From Bradyrhizobium sp. BTAi1 (GTDB taxonomy: Bacteria > Pseudomonadota > Alphaproteobacteria > Rhizobiales > Xanthobacteraceae), in assembly GCF_000015165.1 (NCBI RefSeq), contig NC_009485.1:7335501-7399500 (forward strand): a stretch of DNA of 64,000 bases, written 5' to 3'. The number at the start of each line of letters is the position of its first letter. The first letter of the stretch is position 1. Made by a program: the position numbers and the translations under genes. The notes beneath the pieces are model-generated. The model was not told the DNA's origin. It was given only the letters and a program-made list of their open reading frames with translations, and did no database searches. This document shows positions 10,168 through 50,527 of the stretch, piece by piece.

Positions 10168-10473
10168 CTACAGCTTGCCCATGACGTCGCCGCGGAAGCC
10201 GTAGACCATGCGCTTGCCCGCGAGCGCCACCAGCTGCACGTCGCGGGTCTGGCCGGGCTCGAAGCGCACCGCCGTGCCGGCGGCGATGTCCAGCCGCATG
10301 CCGCGCGCTTTCTTGCGGTCAAATTTCAGCGCCGGATTGGTCTCGAAGAAATGGTAGTGCGAGCCGACCTGGATCGGCCGGTCGCCGGTGTTGGCGACCG
10401 AGAGCGTCACCGTCTTGCGGCCGGCATTGAGCTCGATCTCGCCGTCCTGAATAAAGAGTTCGCCGGGGATCAT
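10168..10473 (-). CDS. ureB: urease subunit beta UreB
   Basis: This 101-residue beta subunit of urease is structural within the alpha-beta-gamma trimer and has no catalytic residues. Recognisable segments are [16 protein letters not shown] at the N terminus, [14 protein letters not shown] and [16 protein letters not shown], with GFRGDVMG near the end. It is preceded by an intergenic palindromic repeat that separates it from ureA and is followed after 4 bases by the HD-domain gene. Confidence 0.98.
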
Positions 10474-10497
10474 GTGTTACCTCGCCTATCTCCGCTG

Positions 10498-10583
10498 CGT
10501 CATGGCCGGGCTTGTCCCGGCCATCCACCTCCCACCTTGCGGATCGGAGGGCGTGGATGCCCGGGTCGAGCCCGGGCATGACG
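10498..10583. repeat. palindromic intergenic repeat between ureA and ureB
   Basis: The left part (10499-10528: CGTCATGGCCGGGC, CCCGGCCATCCAC) and right part (10552-10582: GTGGATGCCCGGG, GCCCGGGCATGACG) are inverted copies of each other, and each half is itself a small hairpin. I recall this kind of GC-rich palindrome as a frequent dispersed repeat in Bradyrhizobium. It fills most of the 132-base ureA-ureB gap. Confidence 0.7.
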
Positions 10584-10605
10584 GCCAACAATGTTTGCGC
10601 CTACC

Positions 10606-10908
10606 TCACCGGATCGGCTCGTGCACCGTGACGAGCTTGGTGCCGTCCGGGAATGTCGCCTCGACCTGGATGTCGTGGATCATCTCAGGAATGCCCGGCA
10701 TCACCTGGTCGCGGGTCAGGACCTGGGCGCCGGCCTGCATCAGTTCGGCCACGGTGCGGCCATCACGCGCGCCTTCGAGGATGAAGTCGGAGATGATCGC
10801 GACCGCCTCGGGATGGTTCAGCTTGACGCCGCGCTCGAGCCTGCGGCGGGCCACGATGGCGGCCATCGAGATCAGGAGCTTGTCCTTTTCGCGGGGAGAC
10901 AGGTTCAT
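10606..10908 (-). CDS. ureA: urease subunit gamma UreA
   Basis: This 100-residue gamma subunit of urease has the family-typical sequence: [20 protein letters not shown] at the N terminus, [22 protein letters not shown] in the middle, and VTRD-type [20 protein letters not shown] near the end. It is separated from ureD by 62 bases containing a tandem 28-bp duplication and from ureB by a palindromic repeat. Confidence 0.98.
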
Positions 10909-10916
10909 GCGGGCTC

Positions 10917-10972
10917 TCTGGTGATCGTCGTCTGGTCAACGTCTTCTGGTAATCGTCAGTTGGTCAACGTCT
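10917..10972. repeat. tandem 28-bp duplication between ureD and ureA
   Basis: Two adjacent 28-bp units (10917-10944 and 10945-10972) begin with TCTGGT and end with TGGTCAACGTCT. They match at 24 of 28 positions. The second unit runs into the ureD stop codon. Confidence 0.75.
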
Positions 10973-11807
10973 AATTAAGCCAGAGCCGCGGCAGCGGCAC
11001 GGCGGAGGCGCAGCCGAGCACGGCCATCATGTCGGCGCGCAGGCTCGCGGCATCTTGGGCACAGAAGCGCGCCATTGCAAATCCATTCCAGGCCGACAGC
11101 CCGGCCTCGCCCCGGAACGCCGGCAGGCTCTCCCGGATGCGCTCGACCAGCGCCGCGTCGCCCGGCACGATCAGCGCCGTCCCGATCGCCGCGGCGCCGT
11201 TGGCGATCGCCGGATGCGCCAGTTTGCCGCCGATGTCGCCGTCGAGGCGGACCGTCTCGGCGAACACCAGCCTGCCGCCGCGCCGCAGCCGCCAGCGATC
11301 GACGAACTCGCCCTCGCGCATGCGTTCGCCCATGGCGGTACGGCCGAACACGACGATCTCGCACAGCAGGAGAGACGCGGTTGCGGCGAGATCGATGTCG
11401 ATGCGGCGGTGAATACGGGCGCGATCGAACAGGATGGTCTCCTGCGGCAGCCACGCGATATGCGCGCCCGCCGCGGCGGTCAGCGCAATGTCGAGCTCGG
11501 CCGGCTTGCCCGGGGCGCGATACACCTTCTCGGCGGCGGCGCTTGACAGCGTTACGCGGCTGCCTTCGCCGGCCGCGACCTCGACCGCGAAGCGATCGCC
11601 GCCGGCGATGCCGCCCGCCGTGTTGACGAACATCGCCGATAGGCCGTCATCCTCGGGCGAGGGAAAGCGCACGCGCAGCGAGCCGGATTCATGCAGATGA
11701 TGACGCCGCGTCATGCCATCCTGCAGCCGCACATCGAAACGCACCGCGCCACGGGCGCGGTTGGCCTCGAAGATATCGGCAGCGGCGCTGGCGGGATCGG
11801 CCCGCAT
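10971..11807 (-). CDS. ureD: urease accessory protein UreD
   Basis: This 278-residue UreD/UreH scaffold protein binds apo-urease and recruits UreF and UreG. Family signatures include the HLHESGSLRVRFP region, FVNTAGGIAGGDRF, SSAAAEKVYR, LPQETILFDRARI and ETVRLDGDIGG. It is the first gene of the ure part of the cluster, 59 bases after urtE, with a perfect 8-bp hairpin (11828-11849) in the gap. The urease genes could therefore be read from the urt promoter. Confidence 0.95.
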   Translation of the reverse strand: MRADPASAAADIFEANRARGAVRFDVRLQDGMTRRHHLHESGSLRVRFPSPEDDGLSAMFVNTAGGIAGGDRFAVEVAAGEGSRVTLSSAAAEKVYRAPGKPAELDIALTAAAGAHIAWLPQETILFDRARIHRRIDIDLAATASLLLCEIVVFGRTAMGERMREGEFVDRWRLRRGGRLVFAETVRLDGDIGGKLAHPAIANGAAAIGTALIVPGDAALVERIRESLPAFRGEAGLSAWNGFAMARFCAQDAASLRADMMAVLGCASAVPLPRLWLN

Positions 11808-11827
11808 CGATCCCCTCCCCTGGGACC

Positions 11828-11849
11828 GGACGCGGGCGAGACCGCGTCC
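11828..11849 (-). promoter_or_regulatory. stem-loop in the urtE-ureD gap
   Basis: GGACGCGG (11828-11835) pairs perfectly with CCGCGTCC (11842-11849) around a 6-base loop. No T-tract follows on the minus strand, so an mRNA-processing or stability role is more likely than termination. Confidence 0.5.
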
Positions 11850-11866
11850 ACCAAGCTAAATGACGA

Positions 11867-12562
11867 TCAAAGCGCCATCTGGCGGCTGATCTCGGCCGGA
11901 TCGAGATTGGCGCGGGTGCATGTGAATTTCACCGCGCCGCGATCCATGACGGCGAAGTTGTCGCCGAGTTCGCAGGCAAAGTCGAGATATTGCTCGACCA
12001 GGACGATGGCGATGTTGCCGAGATTGCGCAAGTAAGAGATGGCCCGGCCGATGTCCTTGATGATCGAGGGCTGGATGCCCTCGGTCGGCTCGTCGAGCAG
12101 CAGGACCTTCGGCCGCATCACCATCGCGCGGCCGATTGCGAGCTGCTGCTGCTGGCCGCCGGAGAGGTCGCCGCCGCGCCGGCCGAGCATCGACTGCAGC
12201 ACCGGAAACAGCGAGAACACGTCGTCCGGAATGCTGCGGTCGCTGCGCTTCAGCGGGCCGAAGCCGGTCTTGAGGTTCTCCTCCACCGTCAGCAGCGGAA
12301 AGATCTCACGACCCTGCGGCACGAAGCCGATGCCCTTGCGCGCCCGCTCATAGGGCTTGAGATGGGTGATGTCGGCGCCATCGAAGGTGATGCTGCCGGA
12401 GGCCAGCGGATATTGCCCGACCAACGCCCGCAAGAGCGAGGTCTTGCCGACGCCGTTGCGGCCGAGCACGCAGGTCACCTTGCCCGGCTCAGCCGCAATC
12501 GAGACGCCGCGCAGCGCCTGGGCGGCGCCGTAATAGAGGTTGATGTTGTCGACGGCCAGCAT
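11867..12562 (-). CDS. urtE: urea ABC transporter ATP-binding protein UrtE
   Basis: This 231-residue ABC ATPase of the LivF-like branch has Walker A GRNGVGKTS near residue 35, the signature LSGGQQQQLAIGRA and Walker B VLLLDEPTEG. With UrtD it powers the high-affinity urea importer. UrtE ends with the urt-family C-terminal stretch (PAEISRQMAL). A clear GGAGGT ribosome-binding site precedes the ATG at 12562, giving independent translation after the repeat-bearing gap that separates it from urtD. Confidence 0.95.
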   Translation of the reverse strand: MLAVDNINLYYGAAQALRGVSIAAEPGKVTCVLGRNGVGKTSLLRALVGQYPLASGSITFDGADITHLKPYERARKGIGFVPQGREIFPLLTVEENLKTGFGPLKRSDRSIPDDVFSLFPVLQSMLGRRGGDLSGGQQQQLAIGRAMVMRPKVLLLDEPTEGIQPSIIKDIGRAISYLRNLGNIAIVLVEQYLDFACELGDNFAVMDRGAVKFTCTRANLDPAEISRQMAL

Positions 12563-42802: not shown

Positions 42803-44149
42803 TCAGGCCGCGGCGATCGATCCTGCATCGGGGGCGCGGGGATCGGACGGCACCGCGTCCGACCGGTCGCTCGCGTCAGCGCGGCCGAGCACGACGCCAC
42901 CGGCCACGCCGACGCCCAGCACATACATCCAGCCCTCGTTGAAATCGAACAGATGCGAGTTGAGGAGCGAGCTGACGAGGTTCTGCACGACGATCGCAAG
43001 TCCGATCCAGGCCGCAGGATGCATACGCCAGAACAGACGCAGATGGACGGCCCACATCGCGTAGAGGACGGCCACGCCGGCCAGTCCCCATTGGATCGCG
43101 ACGTTGAGCGTCTGATTGTGGGGATTGTTCACCACCTCGGCCCGTAGCCCGGTCTGCCCGGCGGCGTCGCTTTCGAACAAGTGCCGGATCGCGCCGGTGC
43201 CGTGTCCGAGCAACGGCGCGTCGGCAAAGAATTTCAGCGACTTGCGCCAGTAGGTCAGCCGCTGCGCGGTCGACGCCGGGACGTTGGCATCATAGGCGCG
43301 ATACTCGATCGCGACATCCGCGACGCGCTGCCGCAGATAGGGCGATGTCGTCCACACCAGGGTGCCCGCAGCGAGCGCAACAGCCACCAGACCGAGCATG
43401 GCGCGGCGGCTCAGATGGCGGACGCCGAACAGCACGAGCAGCACCGGCAGATAGATCAGCGCCGTTCGCGCAGACGCGACGAACAGCATGTTGGCGAGAA
43501 AGCCGGCGATCAACCCGAGCAGGCCCGCGGCCATCAGCAACTGTCGTCGTGTCCAGGCGAGCAGCAGCAACGGGGCGAGCGCAAAGGCGCAGAACGCGAA
43601 TTCCTGGCTCTGGTCGATGTAGTTCTTGACCGGTACGCCGCTCGAGGCCGTCGCGGAGATCTTCCAGGACGGATCGACCACGACGATCCACGACAGGATC
43701 ATCAGCAGCGTGCACGAACCGATGAAGCCGGCGAGAACCCAGGCCGCCCGCGGCGAGCGTCGGAAGTGATAGAGCAGGAACGGAATCAGCAGCAGCTTGG
43801 AAACCGGGTTGAGACCCTTGATGCCGGAGTCCCACGGTCCGCCGGACCACAAGACGCCGATGTCGGCGAGCACGAAGAAGGCCAGCGGCATGGCCGAGAC
43901 GGGTGTGGCCAGGCTGCGGACCAGCTCGTCCCAGTCGATGGTCGGGATCAGCAGGACCAGCCACAGCACAATGAAGAAGGCGGTCGCCGTGGTCGACCAG
44001 GGCAGCGCGACCGCCGTCAGCACCACCATCGTATCGGCAAGCCGGAGATAGAGCGGGGCCTCCACCCAGGGCGTGGCGACGGAGCGCGCCTGCGGCGCAT
44101 CCCGCGATGAACCAGTCTCGAGCGTCATGGGCCAGGCGTCCTGTGCCAT
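42803..44149 (-). CDS. O-antigen ligase family membrane protein
   Basis: This 448-residue inner-membrane protein has about 11 predicted helices and the Wzy_C/WaaL region: a periplasmic loop around residues 280-370 with RLTYWRKSLKFFADAPLLGHGTGAI and NNPHNQTLNVAIQWGLAGV, including the conserved His-Asn. Ligases of this type transfer polymerised glycan to lipid A core or another acceptor. The start follows the upstream glycosyltransferase stop by one base with AGGAGG in front. It is the last gene of the minus-strand polysaccharide locus. Confidence 0.85.
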   Translation of the reverse strand: MAQDAWPMTLETGSSRDAPQARSVATPWVEAPLYLRLADTMVVLTAVALPWSTTATAFFIVLWLVLLIPTIDWDELVRSLATPVSAMPLAFFVLADIGVLWSGGPWDSGIKGLNPVSKLLLIPFLLYHFRRSPRAAWVLAGFIGSCTLLMILSWIVVVDPSWKISATASSGVPVKNYIDQSQEFAFCAFALAPLLLLAWTRRQLLMAAGLLGLIAGFLANMLFVASARTALIYLPVLLVLFGVRHLSRRAMLGLVAVALAAGTLVWTTSPYLRQRVADVAIEYRAYDANVPASTAQRLTYWRKSLKFFADAPLLGHGTGAIRHLFESDAAGQTGLRAEVVNNPHNQTLNVAIQWGLAGVAVLYAMWAVHLRLFWRMHPAAWIGLAIVVQNLVSSLLNSHLFDFNEGWMYVLGVGVAGGVVLGRADASDRSDAVPSDPRAPDAGSIAAA

Positions 44150-44150
44150 A

Positions 44151-45572
44151 TCAGGCCTCCTGCGCTGCAAGTCGTTCATGCCCGGCCGACGTCGCCGCCA
44201 TTGCGCCGTGCGCGCAATCGCTGGCCCCGTCCGCGGGCTGGCCGAGCAGGTCGCGCGCCTGGCTGTGATGGCCGAACCGGGCGGCGAGCTCGCTGCGCCG
44301 CTCGCGAATCTTGTGCCGCCAATGCTCCTGCTGGTGCAGCGCGCGATCGACGGCTGCGCAGATCGAGGCGGTCGAGAACGGATCGAAATATTCGGCGAGA
44401 TCGCCCGCCACCTCACGAAACACGGCAATGTCCGAGCACAGCACCGGCGTGTTCGCGGCGAGCGCCTCGATGATGGGGACACCGAACCCCTCGGCAAAGC
44501 TCGGCATGATCAGGCCATGGGCCTCCGCGATCAGCGCGACCTTGTCCTGCTCCTCCACATAGCCGGCGAAACGGATGTTCGGCGGCAGGTTGCGCGCCTG
44601 ATGCGTCTTGCCGGCATAGCCGATGACGACGAGATCGGCCTGAGGCAGCCGGCGAAAGGCGCGGATCAGCGCATCGAGATTCTTGCGCGGCTCCGCGGAG
44701 ACGATGACGACGAAACTCGGCCGGGCGGCGCCCGCGGCGGTCGCGATGGGCGGCGCAGCCTCGTCGAACCGCGTTCGCGGATAGACCACGCGCGCCGGCA
44801 GATGCGCGTGCTGCGGCATCAATTCCCGGAAGCGCTCCAGGCTGTAGCTGGACACGAAAGCCAGCTCGTCGGCCTGCGCGATGCTGGTGGCCAGCCGCGA
44901 CAGGAACAGCCGCGTCGCGGCATCGCTCAGCTTGAGATCCGTAAGCGGCAGGAGATCATGGACCACGCAGATCACGCGGGTCCCGGCATCGCGTCGGACC
45001 GCGACGCGCGTCGGCGTGTCGATCAGGACGATGTCATACCCGCGCGCGTCGATCCGCGGCGGCGGCAACCTGAAGAACGCCGAGCTGTCCTGGTAGCTGT
45101 AGAAGCCGGGCTCGAGCAGGAACTTTCGGAACAGCCGGAGATGCCGCAGGTCGGGCGGAATGTATTCGAGGCCTTCCGTGCGGTTCTCCAACGCGTCGTG
45201 GCGTGGAAACCAGAATCCCAGCGCCCGGAGGAAGCAGCGGCAGTACTCCGCGGATACCGACACGGTGAGACGGCTCCGCAGCCAGTCCACGCGCTGGCGC
45301 AGACCGCTCCTGCTCGCGGAGGCGTTCATGTCGGCCTCGTCCAGGAAGCGATAGAGCGCCAGCAGCTCGATCAGTCGCGAGTTGGCGGCGAACAGCCGCG
45401 ACTGCTGCTGGCGCTTGCGCAGCTTGCGATAGCGCCTGGTGGTCTCGACCAGCAAAGTGAGCTCGTGCCCTTCCGCGGCGAGCGATCGCAGCAGTTCGCG
45501 GGTGAAATGGAAGATACCGCGCTTGTGATTTGGCTCGCCCAGCGCCTCGCTGATGATCAGGATGCTGGTCAT
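44151..45572 (-). CDS. GT4-type glycosyltransferase
   Basis: This 473-residue GT-B fold enzyme has an N-terminal Rossmann region (ILIISEALGEPNHKRGIFHFTRELLRSL) and a long insertion to about residue 150. The C-terminal GT1/GT4 domain has EPRKNLDALIRAFRRL and the EAHGLIMPSFAEGFGVPIIEALA motif (the E-x7-E donor-binding signature). The ATG overlaps the Wzt-type ATPase stop by 4 bases. The long frame open upstream in this register is an artefact over the ATPase gene. Confidence 0.9.
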   Translation of the reverse strand: MTSILIISEALGEPNHKRGIFHFTRELLRSLAAEGHELTLLVETTRRYRKLRKRQQQSRLFAANSRLIELLALYRFLDEADMNASASRSGLRQRVDWLRSRLTVSVSAEYCRCFLRALGFWFPRHDALENRTEGLEYIPPDLRHLRLFRKFLLEPGFYSYQDSSAFFRLPPPRIDARGYDIVLIDTPTRVAVRRDAGTRVICVVHDLLPLTDLKLSDAATRLFLSRLATSIAQADELAFVSSYSLERFRELMPQHAHLPARVVYPRTRFDEAAPPIATAAGAARPSFVVIVSAEPRKNLDALIRAFRRLPQADLVVIGYAGKTHQARNLPPNIRFAGYVEEQDKVALIAEAHGLIMPSFAEGFGVPIIEALAANTPVLCSDIAVFREVAGDLAEYFDPFSTASICAAVDRALHQQEHWRHKIRERRSELAARFGHHSQARDLLGQPADGASDCAHGAMAATSAGHERLAAQEA

Positions 45573-46309
45573 GCGCAGATCTCCTCCAGTTTCCGAGCCG
45601 ATCGATCCGTCTGACCGCCTCCCTCCGCGCCGACGATGCGGCCGCGATCGAGGGGAACGATCCTGTTGCAGACGCGGCGCAGCAACTCCTGATCGTGCGA
45701 TGCCAGCATCACGATCGCTGCACCATCCACCAGTCCGAGCAGCCGCCGCTCGGCCTTCGCCGAGAAGCGCTCGTCGACGACGCTGAGCCATTCGTCGAGC
45801 AGCAGGATATCGGCGGGGAACGCCGTGGCCGTCGCGAACAGGACCCGCATCAGCATGCCCGACGAGAAGGTGCGCAGCGGCAGCCGGCGCATGCGGTCCT
45901 CGAGCTCGGTGAACGCCCAGATGTCGTCGATGATCGCGGGCGTCGGCCGACGGCCGCCGATCCGCAGCAGCAGGCTGATATTGTCGGTGGCGACCAGGTC
46001 GAGATTGGCCCCCGCGGAGAGACCGAGCAGCGGCATCACCCTGCCCCGGACCTCGATACGGCCGCTGGTCGCCGGATAGACGCCGGCGATCAGCCGCAGC
46101 AGCGTCGATTTTCCCGATCCGTTCGGACCGAACAGTCCGATGCGCGCGCCGGAACGGATGTCGAGCGAGACCTGATCGATCGCCCGTACGGCATGCGCGC
46201 CGTCGGCCTCTCCGAGCAGGCGGTTCATGAGGCGCCGCTTGATCGAGAAGTCGTAGGCTCCGTAGAGCGGGTAGTCGAGACAGACGTTGCTGAGGGTGAT
46301 GCTTGTCAT
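45569..46309 (-). CDS. polysaccharide ABC exporter ATP-binding protein (Wzt/KpsT type)
   Basis: This 246-residue ABC ATPase has Walker A GPNGSGKST, the signature FSSGMLMRVLFATATA (the SSGM variant of polysaccharide exporters) and Walker B ILLLDEWLSVVD. It lacks the C-terminal carbohydrate-binding domain of E. coli O9a Wzt, so it resembles KpsT or RfbE. The partner permease is the C-terminal half of the preceding gene's product, 3 bases upstream. Confidence 0.92.
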   Translation of the reverse strand: MTSITLSNVCLDYPLYGAYDFSIKRRLMNRLLGEADGAHAVRAIDQVSLDIRSGARIGLFGPNGSGKSTLLRLIAGVYPATSGRIEVRGRVMPLLGLSAGANLDLVATDNISLLLRIGGRRPTPAIIDDIWAFTELEDRMRRLPLRTFSSGMLMRVLFATATAFPADILLLDEWLSVVDERFSAKAERRLLGLVDGAAIVMLASHDQELLRRVCNRIVPLDRGRIVGAEGGGQTDRSARKLEEICA

Positions 46310-46312
46310 GGC

Positions 46313-48250
46313 TCAAATCCAGAAGGCGGCTTTGCGCAGCCGGCTCAACGTCACGAGACTCGCGACCACGAGCACCGACAGGCTCATGACCACGTAGAGG
46401 ACGCTCGACATCGGGACCTGCCCGGTTGCCAGCGGCTCGCGCCAGATCGCGAACAGATGCGTCAGCGGATTCACCCGCATGATGAATGACCCGCGGTCGA
46501 TCATCTCGGGGGACCAGATGACGGGCGAGGCCAGGAAGGCGAGCGTCAGGCAGGATTCGATGATCGGCTTGAGGTCGCGAAACCGCGTGGCCAGGGCGCC
46601 GAGCACGAGGCTCGCCGCGAAGGTGAAGGCGATGAACAGCAGCACGCCCGGCAACGCGGCGAACACGCCGCCGACATCCATCGGATCGATCGCGAGCCAC
46701 AGCGCCAGCGGCACACAGGCGTTGTGAAGCGCGAACAGGCCCTGGCGGAAACAGCATTGCAGCAGGAACACGACCGGCGGCAAGGCGCGGTCCTTGATCA
46801 GGCTGGCCGACGCCTGCAGCGCCGTGGTGGCATCGAGCACGACGCCGTTCAGGAACGTCCATGCGGTGAGGCTGAGCGCCAGCATCGGCAGCCGGGACAA
46901 CCCGCCGGCCGGGCCGAAATGACTGATCACCGAGCCGAGCACCGCCACCATGATCGCCATCTGGATCGACATCCAGAACGGGCCGAGCAGCGAGCGCACG
47001 TAGCGATGGCGCAGATCCGACCAAGCCAGCGCGGCGGCGATCCGAACCGAATCGAGCAGTCCGACACCCTGCTCCGATGCGCGATGCGCCGCCGCATGCG
47101 CGGCGACAGCGCGGCGATAGATCCGCTCGATGCCCTGGTCGAATGCCGCGGTCGCAAAATGCGTCGCCGCGCGCTGCCGTGCGGCATCCCCCATGCGGCG
47201 GCGGCGCGCGGGGTCGGCGAGCAGCGCGTTGATCGCTCCGGCGAGCGCCACGGCATCGCTCGGCGGCACGGTGACGGCCTCGCGGCCATCACGGGCGACG
47301 CGGGGCACGCCGGTGTCGAGCGCGGTGTTGACGATCGGACGGCCGGCCGCCATCGCCTCCAACTGCACGAGCCCGAAGGTCTCGGCATTGGTGACCGAGG
47401 GCATGACGAAGACGTCGGCGGCGCCGATCTCGGCCACCATCTCGTCATCGCATAGCGAGCCGAGCAGCCGGACTCGATCCGCGATTCCGAAGCCGTCGAT
47501 CAGCTGCTGCAGATGAGCGCGCTCGCGTCCCTCGCCGATGATCCTGACCTCGAAGTCGTGGTCGGCCGCGGCACGGATCAGCACGTCGAAGCCCTTGTAC
47601 GGCACGAGGCGGCCGCAGGCGACGACGCGCCGGCCGGCGGAGCCCGGCCGCTCGCTGTTTTCCAGCGCCGCGAATTTCCGAAGATCGACGCCGAACGGAA
47701 CGACGTGGCACTTGTTGGCGACGTCGCGCAGCAGCGCGGTCCGCGTCGCGAGCGCGGCATCGGAGACGATGATCGCCTCCGCGCGCTGCAACGTTCGCCG
47801 CATCAGCGGCTCGACCAGCCAGCGCAGCCGGCCATGCGACACGATGTCGGCATGCCAGTGCACGACCAGCGGACGCGCCCGCCCGAGACCGCAGGCGAAT
47901 ACGAGATCGGCCAGCGGAAACGGCGCATGCAGCGCGACCAGATCGTACGCGGCAATGCGGCGCCACAGCCGGAACGGATAGGTCGGCGCAATCGGCAGCG
48001 AGAACAGGTTTCCGAGCGAGCGCACGCGCTCGACCGGAATGCCGTTCACGATCTCGTGGCGGGGCCGCGGCGCGTCCGAGCAGACCAGCACCGACGACGC
48101 GACGGCGTGCGCCAGGCCGGCGCAGATGTCGCGGATCACCGTGAGCGTGCCGCCGAACAGGTCGGGATAGAAGACCTTGAAGACGTGAAGCACCGAGAAG
48201 CGGCGCGAAGAGGCAGGAGCTGCGTCCATGACCGGGCTCGCGGGGCTCAA
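46313..48250 (-). CDS. glycosyltransferase fused to Wzm-type ABC-2 polysaccharide export permease
   Basis: One continuous frame of 645 codons carries two modules. Residues about 17-385 are a GT4 glycosyltransferase (HVFKVFYPDLFGGTLTVIRDI, VVPFGVDLRKF, ACGRLVPYKGFDVLIRAA, MPSVTNAETFGLVQLEAMAAGRPIV). Residues about 400-645 are an ABC-2 permease with six helices, starting at LAWSDLRHRYVRSLLGPFWMS, the usual Wzm/KpsM N terminus, and including SPVIWSPEMI and NPLTHLFAIWREPL. No stop or Met start lies between the modules, so it is a real fusion unless the sequence is wrong. The Wzt-type ATPase follows immediately. I infer that glycan extension and export are coupled in one polypeptide. Confidence 0.85.
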   Translation of the reverse strand: MSPASPVMDAAPASSRRFSVLHVFKVFYPDLFGGTLTVIRDICAGLAHAVASSVLVCSDAPRPRHEIVNGIPVERVRSLGNLFSLPIAPTYPFRLWRRIAAYDLVALHAPFPLADLVFACGLGRARPLVVHWHADIVSHGRLRWLVEPLMRRTLQRAEAIIVSDAALATRTALLRDVANKCHVVPFGVDLRKFAALENSERPGSAGRRVVACGRLVPYKGFDVLIRAAADHDFEVRIIGEGRERAHLQQLIDGFGIADRVRLLGSLCDDEMVAEIGAADVFVMPSVTNAETFGLVQLEAMAAGRPIVNTALDTGVPRVARDGREAVTVPPSDAVALAGAINALLADPARRRRMGDAARQRAATHFATAAFDQGIERIYRRAVAAHAAAHRASEQGVGLLDSVRIAAALAWSDLRHRYVRSLLGPFWMSIQMAIMVAVLGSVISHFGPAGGLSRLPMLALSLTAWTFLNGVVLDATTALQASASLIKDRALPPVVFLLQCCFRQGLFALHNACVPLALWLAIDPMDVGGVFAALPGVLLFIAFTFAASLVLGALATRFRDLKPIIESCLTLAFLASPVIWSPEMIDRGSFIMRVNPLTHLFAIWREPLATGQVPMSSVLYVVMSLSVLVVASLVTLSRLRKAAFWI

Positions 48251-48469: not shown

Positions 48470-48491
48470 GTGATCTCGCTAGACTTGATTG

Positions 48492-49355
48492 ATGGATCCG
48501 AGTTCCGGACAATCGCCGCCGGCTGCGCCCTCGCCGCTCGCCGCGACACAGCTGCACGCGCCGCTGGCGCGGCTGCTGCGTCCGCTCGTGCGCCTGTGCA
48601 TTCGCAGTGGCATGACGTTTCCGGCGCTGGCGCAGCTGCTCCGCGAGCTGTTCGTGAACGTCGCCGAGCACGACTTCGCGCTGGACGGCAAGCCGCAGAC
48701 CGACAGCCGCGTCAGCCTGCTCACGGGCATCCACCGCAAGGAGGTGGCGCGGCTGCGCGGCGCCGGAGCTCCTGTGAACGAGGTGCCGGCGACCTTGTCG
48801 CGCACCAGCGCCATCATCGCGCACTGGCTGGCCGCGCCGGAATTCACCGATGCCAAGGGCGAGCCGCTGCCGCTGCCGCGCACGGCCGACGGCGATGCGC
48901 CGTCGTTCGAGGCGCTGGTCGCCGCGATCACCAAGGACGTGCGGCCGCGCGCGGTGCTCGACGAATGGCTCGATCGCAGGCTCGTGACGATCGATGCGCA
49001 GGACAACATCGTGCTGGCCGAGACCGGCCTCGTGCCGCGCGGCGACGACGACCGCAAATGGTACTATCTCGGCCGCAATCTGCACGACCACATTGCGGCC
49101 GCAGCGACCAACGTCTCGGGCGATGCGCCGCGCTTCATGGAGCGCGCGGTGCATTATGACGGGCTGTCGCCGAAGCTCGCGCGGCGACTCGAGCAGCGCT
49201 CGCGCGAGCTGGCGATGGAGGCGCTGAAAACGGCGAACCGCGAAGCCAACCGCGCCCTCGCCAAGGACAAGGGCGGCGACGCGCGCTGGAATTTCGGCGT
49301 CTACATTTATCTCGAAGAGCCGCCGGACGCGCCCGGCAAGGGCGGCACGTCATGA
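48492..49355 (+). CDS. DUF6502 family protein
   Basis: This 287-residue soluble protein is mostly helical. The N-terminal part (PLARLLRPLVRLCIRSGMTFPALAQLLRELFVNVAEHDF, then TDSRVSLLTGIHRKEVARLR) resembles a winged-helix DNA-binding region, and the family is known only as DUF6502. The C-terminal half ends in a basic helix. It starts at ATG 48492 after TTG and is followed with a 4-base overlap by the DUF5666 gene. The fixed pair suggests a shared unknown role. Family assignment is from memory. Confidence 0.72.
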   Translation: MDPSSGQSPPAAPSPLAATQLHAPLARLLRPLVRLCIRSGMTFPALAQLLRELFVNVAEHDFALDGKPQTDSRVSLLTGIHRKEVARLRGAGAPVNEVPATLSRTSAIIAHWLAAPEFTDAKGEPLPLPRTADGDAPSFEALVAAITKDVRPRAVLDEWLDRRLVTIDAQDNIVLAETGLVPRGDDDRKWYYLGRNLHDHIAAAATNVSGDAPRFMERAVHYDGLSPKLARRLEQRSRELAMEALKTANREANRALAKDKGGDARWNFGVYIYLEEPPDAPGKGGTS

Positions 49356-50527
49356 GCCGGCCGCCCGGTTTGTCGCGCAGGTCGCTGCTCGCCGGCATCT
49401 GGCTCGCCGGATCGTCGGCTCTGGCGTGGGGACAGACGCGCAAGGGCAATGATCAAGGTCTCGGCGGCACCGGCATCACCGGCGGCCAGGACCAGGGCAT
49501 GGGCGGCACCGGCATCGTCGGCGTGATCCAGCGCTTCGGCAGCATCTTCGTCAATGGCGAACGCGTCAGCTACGCTGCCGACGTGCCGGTGCGGATCGAC
49601 GGCGAGGCGGCCTCGGCCAAGGCGCTCAAGATCGGGCAGCTCGCACGCGTGCTGGCGCAGCGCGACGGCAAGGGCACGCTGACCACACGAAGCATCGACA
49701 TCGTCAGCGAGGTCACCGGACCGATCGAGGCCATCAGGCCCGGCGAGCTCACCGTGCTTGGCCAGACCGTCGTCTCTCCGGGCCAGGAGAGCTGGCGGAA
49801 GATCGGCACGCACGTCGCCGTGTTCGGCCTGCGGCGCAGCGACGGCGTGATCGTCGCGAGCCTGGTCGATCCGCGCCAGACCACGGTCAGCCGAGTCAGC
49901 GGCGTGGTGGTGCGGGATCGCAACGGGCTCGCCCTCGGCGGGCTCCACCTCGCCGGTGTCGATCCGGCCCTGATCGGACGCCGCATCCAGGCCGAGGGCC
50001 GCATGGCGCATGGCGTGCTGCAGGTCACACGTATCAGGCCCGACGATCTCCAGGATTTCGCCCGCGCCAGCCGGCTGCTGGTCGAAGGCTATGTCCGGCG
50101 TGTCGGCAGCGAGCTGCAATTCGGCTCGGGCTATGTCGCGCGTGACAATTCGCGCTTCCAGCCGTCTGGGGAGACACGCGTCGTCGTCAACGCCGTGCCC
50201 GACGGCGCCGGTGGGCTGCGGGTCGAGACCGTGCAGGCGGTGAGCCGATTCCCCGGCGAGTCCGTCCAGGGTCCGCACGCCCCGCCGCGCAGCCAGGGAC
50301 CCATGCACGGACCGGGCGGCCCAGGTGGCGCGAATGCTCCGGGCGGACCGAATGGTCCGGGCGGATCGGGTGGACCGGGTGCTCCCGGCGGCCCGGGCGC
50401 GCCAGGATTCGGCAGGGACAATGGGATGGCGCCGCCCGGCGGATTCAGTCCCGGCGGCCCAACGGATGGGCCGGGCTTCGGCGGCGCCCCAGGCGGTCCG
50501 CCCGGTGGCGGCGGCGGCCGGCGCTGA
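49352..50527 (+). CDS. DUF5666 repeat protein with collagen-like tail
   Basis: This 391-residue exported protein has a twin-arginine-like signal (LSRRSLLAGIWLAG, then ALAWG) and a GGTGI repeat segment (GLGGTGITGGQDQGMGGTGI). Several small beta domains of the DUF5666 type follow (FGSIFVNGERVSY, VEVTGPIEAI-like, GRRIQAEGRM, VEGYVRR). The last 105 residues are a Gly-Pro-rich collagen-like tail of G-x-y triplets. It probably lies in the periplasm or on the surface. The collagen-like end and its coupling to DUF6502 are its odd features. Confidence 0.75.
   Translation: MSRPPGLSRRSLLAGIWLAGSSALAWGQTRKGNDQGLGGTGITGGQDQGMGGTGIVGVIQRFGSIFVNGERVSYAADVPVRIDGEAASAKALKIGQLARVLAQRDGKGTLTTRSIDIVSEVTGPIEAIRPGELTVLGQTVVSPGQESWRKIGTHVAVFGLRRSDGVIVASLVDPRQTTVSRVSGVVVRDRNGLALGGLHLAGVDPALIGRRIQAEGRMAHGVLQVTRIRPDDLQDFARASRLLVEGYVRRVGSELQFGSGYVARDNSRFQPSGETRVVVNAVPDGAGGLRVETVQAVSRFPGESVQGPHAPPRSQGPMHGPGGPGGANAPGGPNGPGGSGGPGAPGGPGAPGFGRDNGMAPPGGFSPGGPTDGPGFGGAPGGPPGGGGGRR

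Follow-up and report, generated by a model that had tools for sequence, protein, structure and literature searches.

Results

The fusion gene and its start

The minus strand of the window, the whole stretch of 64,000 nucleotides of Bradyrhizobium sp. BTAi1 analysed here, carries an open reading frame at 46313-48250 in which a GT4 glycosyltransferase (GT) is followed by a Wzm-type ABC-2 permease. Two starts were considered, a TTG at 48250 giving 645 amino acids without internal stops and an ATG at 48229 giving 638. An ATG lies 11 codons ahead of the motif SVLH(I/V)FK in 25 of 30 same-genus loci (own genome included), and in the remaining five (L015, L024, L027, L036, L038) the candidate starts lie 8 to 19 codons before it. 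The ATG at the same place in the window is 48229, and the first 7 residues of the 645-residue version are thus probably untranslated. Based on the open frame, the starts of homologues and Pfam, we therefore place the gene of the GT4-Wzm fusion protein at 46313-48229 on the minus strand. The preliminary description, which gave no strand, had taken the 645-residue frame; its coordinates and the openness of the frame stand, while its first seven codons probably have to be given up. Residue numbers below refer to the 638-residue version, except for the Pfam domain ranges, which are in 645-residue numbering.

Both halves score above the curated Pfam cut-offs (Glyco_transf_4 at 33-191, Glycos_transf_1 at 208-360 and ABC2_membrane, PF01061, at 407-602 with 41.8 bits against a cut-off of 26.9) with no stop in between, which bears out the earlier proposal of a GT4 domain running into an ABC-2 permease in one frame. 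The GT4 domain, of GT-B fold, comprises residues about 11-386 (47072-48199, minus strand), as delimited by Pfam, AlphaFold2 and alignment with 6kih. Within it, Glu283 and Glu291 (47357-47383, minus strand) form what we take to be the E-x7-E motif. A linker of variable sequence, recognised from dN/dS and its in-frame lengths, covers residues 371-396 (47042-47119, minus strand). The permease domain extends over residues about 391-638 (46316-47059, minus strand) based on Pfam, alignment with 9qfx_A, AlphaFold2, hydropathy and motifs, and consists of an interface helix (391-412), an LG loop (L415-G416) and hydrophobic helices from residue 415.

The operon and its neighbours

The gene of a Wzt-type ATPase of 246 amino acids (45569-46309, minus strand; Pfam ABC_tran) begins 3 bases beyond the end of the fusion frame, at 46309 and 46313 respectively, as had been described before. 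Its residues 2-228 align with 9qfx_C (E 2.3e-40) from the N-terminus of that chain onward, near which ATPases of the Wzt type carry a gate-helix insertion. No Wzt_C domain was found among the Pfam matches of the 246-residue protein at E 0.01. The ATPase thus does not have the C-terminal carbohydrate-binding module that marks exporters of capped O-antigens, and agrees with the cap-independent exporters of the O2a type, which are without it.

The ATPase gene overlaps by 4 bases (45569-45572) with that of a second GT4 glycosyltransferase of 473 amino acids (44151-45572, minus strand; assigned by Pfam, start chosen by homologues). Both genes are present in 62 of the 63 fused loci found in a scan of named genomes (see below), the exception, L140, being cut by a contig end. 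An O-antigen ligase superfamily gene follows (Wzy_C; 42803-44179, minus strand; PF04932 with 65.6 bits), coding for about 458 amino acids with an uncertain start and having no NCBIfam match at E 1e-5. We regard it as accessory: it is found in 57 of the 63 loci, and five uncut ones (L119, L136, L137, L143, L149) have no match. Downstream of the cassette in L136 there is a carbamoyltransferase gene (10264-12276 of that locus; Carbam_trans_N and _C), and a protein similar to it by eye starts at position 13193 of L095.

Neither a nucleotide-sugar gene in the cassette nor a chain-length or polymerase gene in the operon was seen. The cassette holds two GTs only; initiation must come from elsewhere. 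Elsewhere in the genome, three PF02397 and two PF00953 matches are candidate initiating enzymes; one of the latter may, we presume, be MraY.

On the other side of the fusion lies a divergent, conserved DUF6502 gene (48489-49355, plus strand; Pfam) that is matched in 63 of 63 fused named loci. This gene is a marker of the site and stands outside the mechanism discussed below. It is followed at 49352-50527 (plus strand) by a gene for a 391-residue protein with a Gly/Pro-rich tail, which is matched in 59 of the 63 loci and resembles DUF5666 weakly, at 30.6 bits against a cut-off of 27.

Predicted structure and exporter class

Using an alignment of 66 rows, AlphaFold2 predicts the fusion protein with a mean pLDDT of 91 and a pTM of 0.74; this run superseded one with 14 close homologues (pLDDT 61). 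The model comprises a GT-B domain, a helix at 360-386, a four-residue break, a helix at 391-412 and long helices beyond, which are hydrophobic according to hydropathy analysis. Among the Foldseek matches listed, the GT superimposes on 6kih with a VIA-align Z of 40.8 over 362 residues (rmsd 2.5) and on MshA with a Z of 38.9 over 356 residues (rmsd 2.4). The best 50 Foldseek (PDB), VIA and viral-library matches are mostly glycosyltransferases and bear on the GT half, not on the permease half. The Glyco_transf_4 and Glycos_transf_1 domains, the GT-B fold and the catalytic motif are those of the GT4 class.

The permease half was assigned by its sequence match to the permease chain 9qfx_A, which has an E-value of 5.3e-37 and, with a Wzm profile as query, of 5.6e-78. 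Besides the ABC2_membrane domain this half shows features of the Wzm/Wzt exporters, namely the predicted interface helix, the LG loop and an aspartate in the TM4-5 loop (D552). Based on alignment and the available text of PMC6379404, L415-G416 and D552 can be equated with L23-G and D167 of the Aquifex protein. In NCBIfam the top-scoring models describe subunits of galactan exporters, NF050109 for Wzm within the permease half (131.5 bits, cut-off 380) and NF050108 for the ATPase (168.6 bits, cut-off 400), and with scores far below the cut-offs neither subunit is assigned to these equivalogs. For Aquifex WzmWzt, the available text of PMC6379404 places the N-terminal interface helix of Wzm at the interface between nucleotide-binding and membrane domains. 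Judged from this position and from the topology of the predicted model, the fused GT should hang at the cytosolic entrance of the exporter.

Selection and invariant residues

We compared 64 fused sequences, i.e. the window, L080 and 62 of the 63 fused named loci (L128 was left out; L140 is cut by a contig end). For disjoint pairs chosen at an overall dS of 0.15-0.8, the summed dN/dS is 0.180 for the GT and 0.168 for Wzm (29 pairs) and 0.475 for the linker (28 pairs). By this measure both domains are under purifying selection, and the linker is less so. The linker occurs in nine lengths of 25-35 residues and is always in frame in the 64 aligned sequences.

In the GT, residues GG26-27, H101, H124, H126, R207, K212, E283 and E291 are invariant in 64 of 64 sequences; their roles are presumably those of the corresponding residues in GT4 enzymes. 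The same invariance holds in the permease for L415, G416 and D552.

We also searched for starts from which a free Wzm could be made. The window has no in-frame ATG, GTG or TTG within 50 codons before A402. Among the 64 homologous sequences, 35 have an ATG at a distance of 38 codons ahead of the permease motif, and in 5 of them a Shine-Dalgarno-like stretch goes with it. A GTG occurs 39 codons ahead of the motif in 10 sequences, 9 of them with such a stretch, and 42 codons ahead in 7, all 7 with such a stretch. To judge from these codons, some other homologues may produce free Wzm.

Distribution of the fusion

The full-length fusion, in one open frame without stops, is present in 35 of 98 same-genus genomes including the window's own and absent from 63; it is thus widespread but not universal in the genus. 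The scan of named genomes gave 77 loci, with both halves in one open frame in 63 and either a GT alone or a GT with a separate Wzm in the other 14. The two sets are not independent, as many genomes are probably in both. A sequencing error hiding a stop or frameshift near 47080, raised earlier as a caveat, is ruled out by the open frames that cross both halves in so many genomes of either set. In a draw from the family the fusion was found in 10 of 296 genomes, of which nine belong to the window's genus and one to a different genus. It was also found in 3 of 397 order genomes, and in 1 of 385 class and 1 of 398 phylum genomes, both being the own genome; these four draws partly overlap. None of the 64 plasmid records with a match covers 80% of the query.

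Of the 63 fused named loci, 59 carry a Bradyrhizobium label, and the other four are records of Methylocapsa sp. S129, an Alsobacter MAG, a Bradyrhizobiaceae MAG and a 'Frankia'. The last of these (L128, Frankia sp. RB7) has a cassette like those typical of Bradyrhizobium, flanked by the same genes, and is probably a mislabelled assembly. The Methylocapsa and Alsobacter records (L143, L149) contain the cassette with DUF6502 and no Wzy_C match. In L149 the DUF6502 gene is on the opposite side of the cassette, a hint that the block was transferred or rearranged.

All named loci with a Wzm at least 55% identical to that of the window are fused (63 of 63), while the Wzm of unfused named loci is at most 43% identical. 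The expectation that permeases of the Wzm class normally stand alone holds in the phylum draw: when up to 6 candidates were scored in each of its 398 genomes, 105 had a Wzm match, and that of the window was the only one in a fused frame. Five more Wzm matches from four genomes (G496, G1091 twice, G1234, G1305) lie in open frames of 490-610 amino acids. They do not appear to be further GT-Wzm fusions: read by eye, the stretch upstream of the permease shows nothing GT-like and is compositionally biased, apparently a chance translation.

Relatives of the two halves

To trace the two halves we analysed 26 loci chosen for a related GT. In 16 of these (L071-L079, L081-L084, L086-L088) the GT is a gene of its own, followed within about 0.6 kb by a Wzm-Wzt pair; the rest are L080, which is fused, and nine loci with other arrangements. 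The 16 tandem clusters have the gene order of the fusion, GT4 - Wzm - Wzt, and a GT 41-47% identical to the fused GT domain. In contrast to the fusion, GT and Wzm are separate genes, and this Wzm is only 22-36% identical to the fused one and belongs to other clades. Of the clusters scanned for neighbours, L079 and L082 have gmd (GDP-mannose 4,6-dehydratase) upstream and L071 has rmlA; with gmd in two relatives and rmlA in one, the sugar of the fused form cannot be deduced from them.

When 41 Wzm domains were placed in a tree, by a quick method and with several long branches, the 13 from fusions came together in a single clade (SH-aLRT 97), which groups with the stand-alone proteins of L172 and L173 with a support of 99. 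The Wzm genes adjoining related GTs fall elsewhere in this tree, most of them in two other groups. Thus, the GT4 lineage is found upstream of Wzm from at least two further clades. In the GT tree, eleven fused GTs and the GT of L053 form a group with a support of 99, while the window GT and that of L100 branch next to this group at a fork that is not resolved, and two changes are required for the fused label; this tree by itself does not resolve the fused GTs as one clade.

The nearest stand-alone relatives of the fused Wzm, L172 and L173 (41-43% identity), differ from the Wzm adjoining related GTs, and the unfused ancestor of the pair has thus not been seen. In six tandem loci (L071, L073-L077) the GT and Wzm frames are in register, and only one stop codon separates them. 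An origin of the fusion by mere loss of this codon from tandem genes of today is nevertheless not supported, since the tandem Wzm belong to other clades than the fused Wzm. As read from these trees and gene orders, one GT lineage accompanies several exporter lineages, and in one lineage both became a single protein. It looks as though the GT stays the same while its partner exporter can be exchanged.

One Bradyrhizobium genome (G013) carries a diverged free GT of 53-54% identity at the DUF6502 site (L053, 8852-10069). It is followed by an unrelated convergent gene, and its exporter half appears to be lost together with the other genes of the operon. This locus appears to be the remnant of a cassette loss in which the exporter half was deleted.

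Discussion

Based on these results we propose that a single polypeptide would combine a catalytically competent GT4 enzyme with the membrane subunit of a Wzm-Wzt system that exports lipid-linked glycans, encoded in a compact operon with the ATPase, the second GT4 and usually the O-antigen-ligase-like protein. The C-terminal helix of the GT would continue, by way of the short linker, into the interface helix of Wzm on the cytosolic side. GT and permease would be locked in a 1:1 ratio, and a dimeric exporter would carry a pair of GT domains where the channel opens to the cytosol. A Wzt without the carbohydrate-binding module would have nothing to read a terminal cap. The tethered GT would keep synthesis and export of the lipid-linked glycan together, and extension and export may be coupled as in systems of the Klebsiella O2a type. 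If one stable polypeptide is made, synthesis is physically tethered to export, and the conserved fusion suggests that the chain is built at the gate through which it leaves.

We estimate the probability that the GT4-Wzm polypeptide couples lipid-linked glycan synthesis to cap-independent export at roughly 0.6. Counting against it are the absence of the fusion from 63 of the 98 same-genus genomes, the need for initiation from outside the cassette, the lack of an unfused ancestor among the loci analysed, the loss of the exporter half at L053, a GT tree that does not resolve the fused GTs as one clade and, as regards a single protein, the start codons near the joint in other homologues. More tentatively, and with the odds somewhat against it, fusion, Wzt and second GT4 could form a three-gene machine in which the GT acts as a domain of the ABC channel and extension and ATP-driven translocation are one cycle. 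Chain length would then follow from the fixed 1:1 ratio of GT to permease and not from a cap and a carbohydrate-binding module.

The cassette might instead export a short lipid-linked oligosaccharide or glycolipid, the fused GT adding one of the last sugars and the exporter flipping the product. This would fit a core unit of only the fusion, Wzt and one more GT4, an operon in which a chain-length or polymerase gene was not seen, and the five uncut loci without a Wzy_C match. We nevertheless consider it unlikely, as the annotation of the closest solved exporter, 9qfx, is O-antigen/LPS transport, the top NCBIfam models, whose cut-offs are not reached, stand for galactan exporters, and GT4 enzymes can be processive. 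Another explanation is that neighbouring genes were joined incidentally and almost neutrally, and that in the cell the halves work separately or are parted by cleavage. It draws on the 16 of 26 loci in which a related GT directly precedes a separate Wzm gene, the six same-frame loci with one stop between the open frames and the fast evolution of the linker. However, among the 77 named loci the Wzm of the fused clade (at least 55% identity) was never found split from its GT, linker lengths vary yet hold the frame in all 64 aligned sequences, and the loss at L053 removed the exporter half by deletion; such a neutral origin is therefore improbable in our view. A GT that mainly reads the end of the glycan, replacing the missing module of Wzt, would likewise account for a Wzt of this form; glycan acceptors are natural ligands of any GT, and this one would probably sit at the cytosolic entrance. 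A pure reader would, however, be expected to lose some catalytic positions, and those examined are invariant in 64 of 64 sequences, making this explanation very improbable.

The coupling of synthesis to export that we prefer can be compared with known systems. According to the available text of PMC6379404 and PMC9445017, the Aquifex aeolicus Wzm-Wzt exporter (6m96, 7k2t) shares with the fusion the permease family, the interface helix, the LG loop, the aspartate of the TM4-5 loop and the ATPase partner. In Aquifex, however, Wzm stands alone and Wzt has a carbohydrate-binding domain, whereas here Wzm has an N-terminal GT4 domain and Wzt is without such a domain. The chains closest by sequence among solved structures are for both subunits those of 9qfx, annotated as O-antigen/LPS transport with an RfbE-type ATPase; its permease is a separate chain of 307 residues, whereas the permease here is joined to the GT. 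The Klebsiella O1/O2a pathway, as presented in the available text of PMC11231755, has an ABC exporter without carbohydrate-binding module, like the cassette here, and extension and export in O2a are obligately coupled. Exporter and biosynthesis complex are separate components there, in contrast to the GT within the permease found here.

No GT fused to an exporter is mentioned in the available text of PMC11231755, PMC6379404, PMC10951656, PMC9601211, PMC9445017, PMC4743980 and PMC4070871, and searches of the open-licence literature for such a fusion and for Wzm/Wzt of Bradyrhizobium brought up nothing recognisable as a GT-Wzm fusion. The fusion had been put forward as an undescribed arrangement, and with regard to the literature this still applies; it is not a singular case, since a conserved family exists, mostly in Bradyrhizobium. 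The parts are thus of known kinds, while their covalent combination and its conservation appear undescribed. The finding bears on how exporters without carbohydrate-binding module time export and on whether GTs physically engage Wzm-Wzt. For mycobacterial galactan, an interaction of GlfT2 with the exporter has been proposed to control polymer size and is still being explored (available text of PMC10951656). The existence in nature of a conserved protein in which GT and Wzm are covalently joined indicates that contact of this kind does not preclude function. The fusion further offers a system in which cutting the linker is a simple test of coupling, and a defined GT-exporter complex for structural work.

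As to the glycan, another Wzm gene is located at 5.90 Mb of the same chromosome, the cassette being at 7.38 Mb. Around 5.91 Mb there are genes for a Wzy_C protein of 427 amino acids, HldE, a heptose epimerase and heptosyltransferase II. The available text of PMC4743980 describes a like context with a 427-residue RfaL in the photosynthetic Bradyrhizobium ORS285, of which rfaL mutants are without the bradyrhizose O-antigen. The genes that adjoin one another in that context (rfaL, rfaD, rfaE, rfaF) are not found next to the cassette, and position and gene context rule it out as the bradyrhizose O-antigen locus. Located 1.48 Mb from the rfaL-type O-antigen locus, the cassette probably serves a second glycan.
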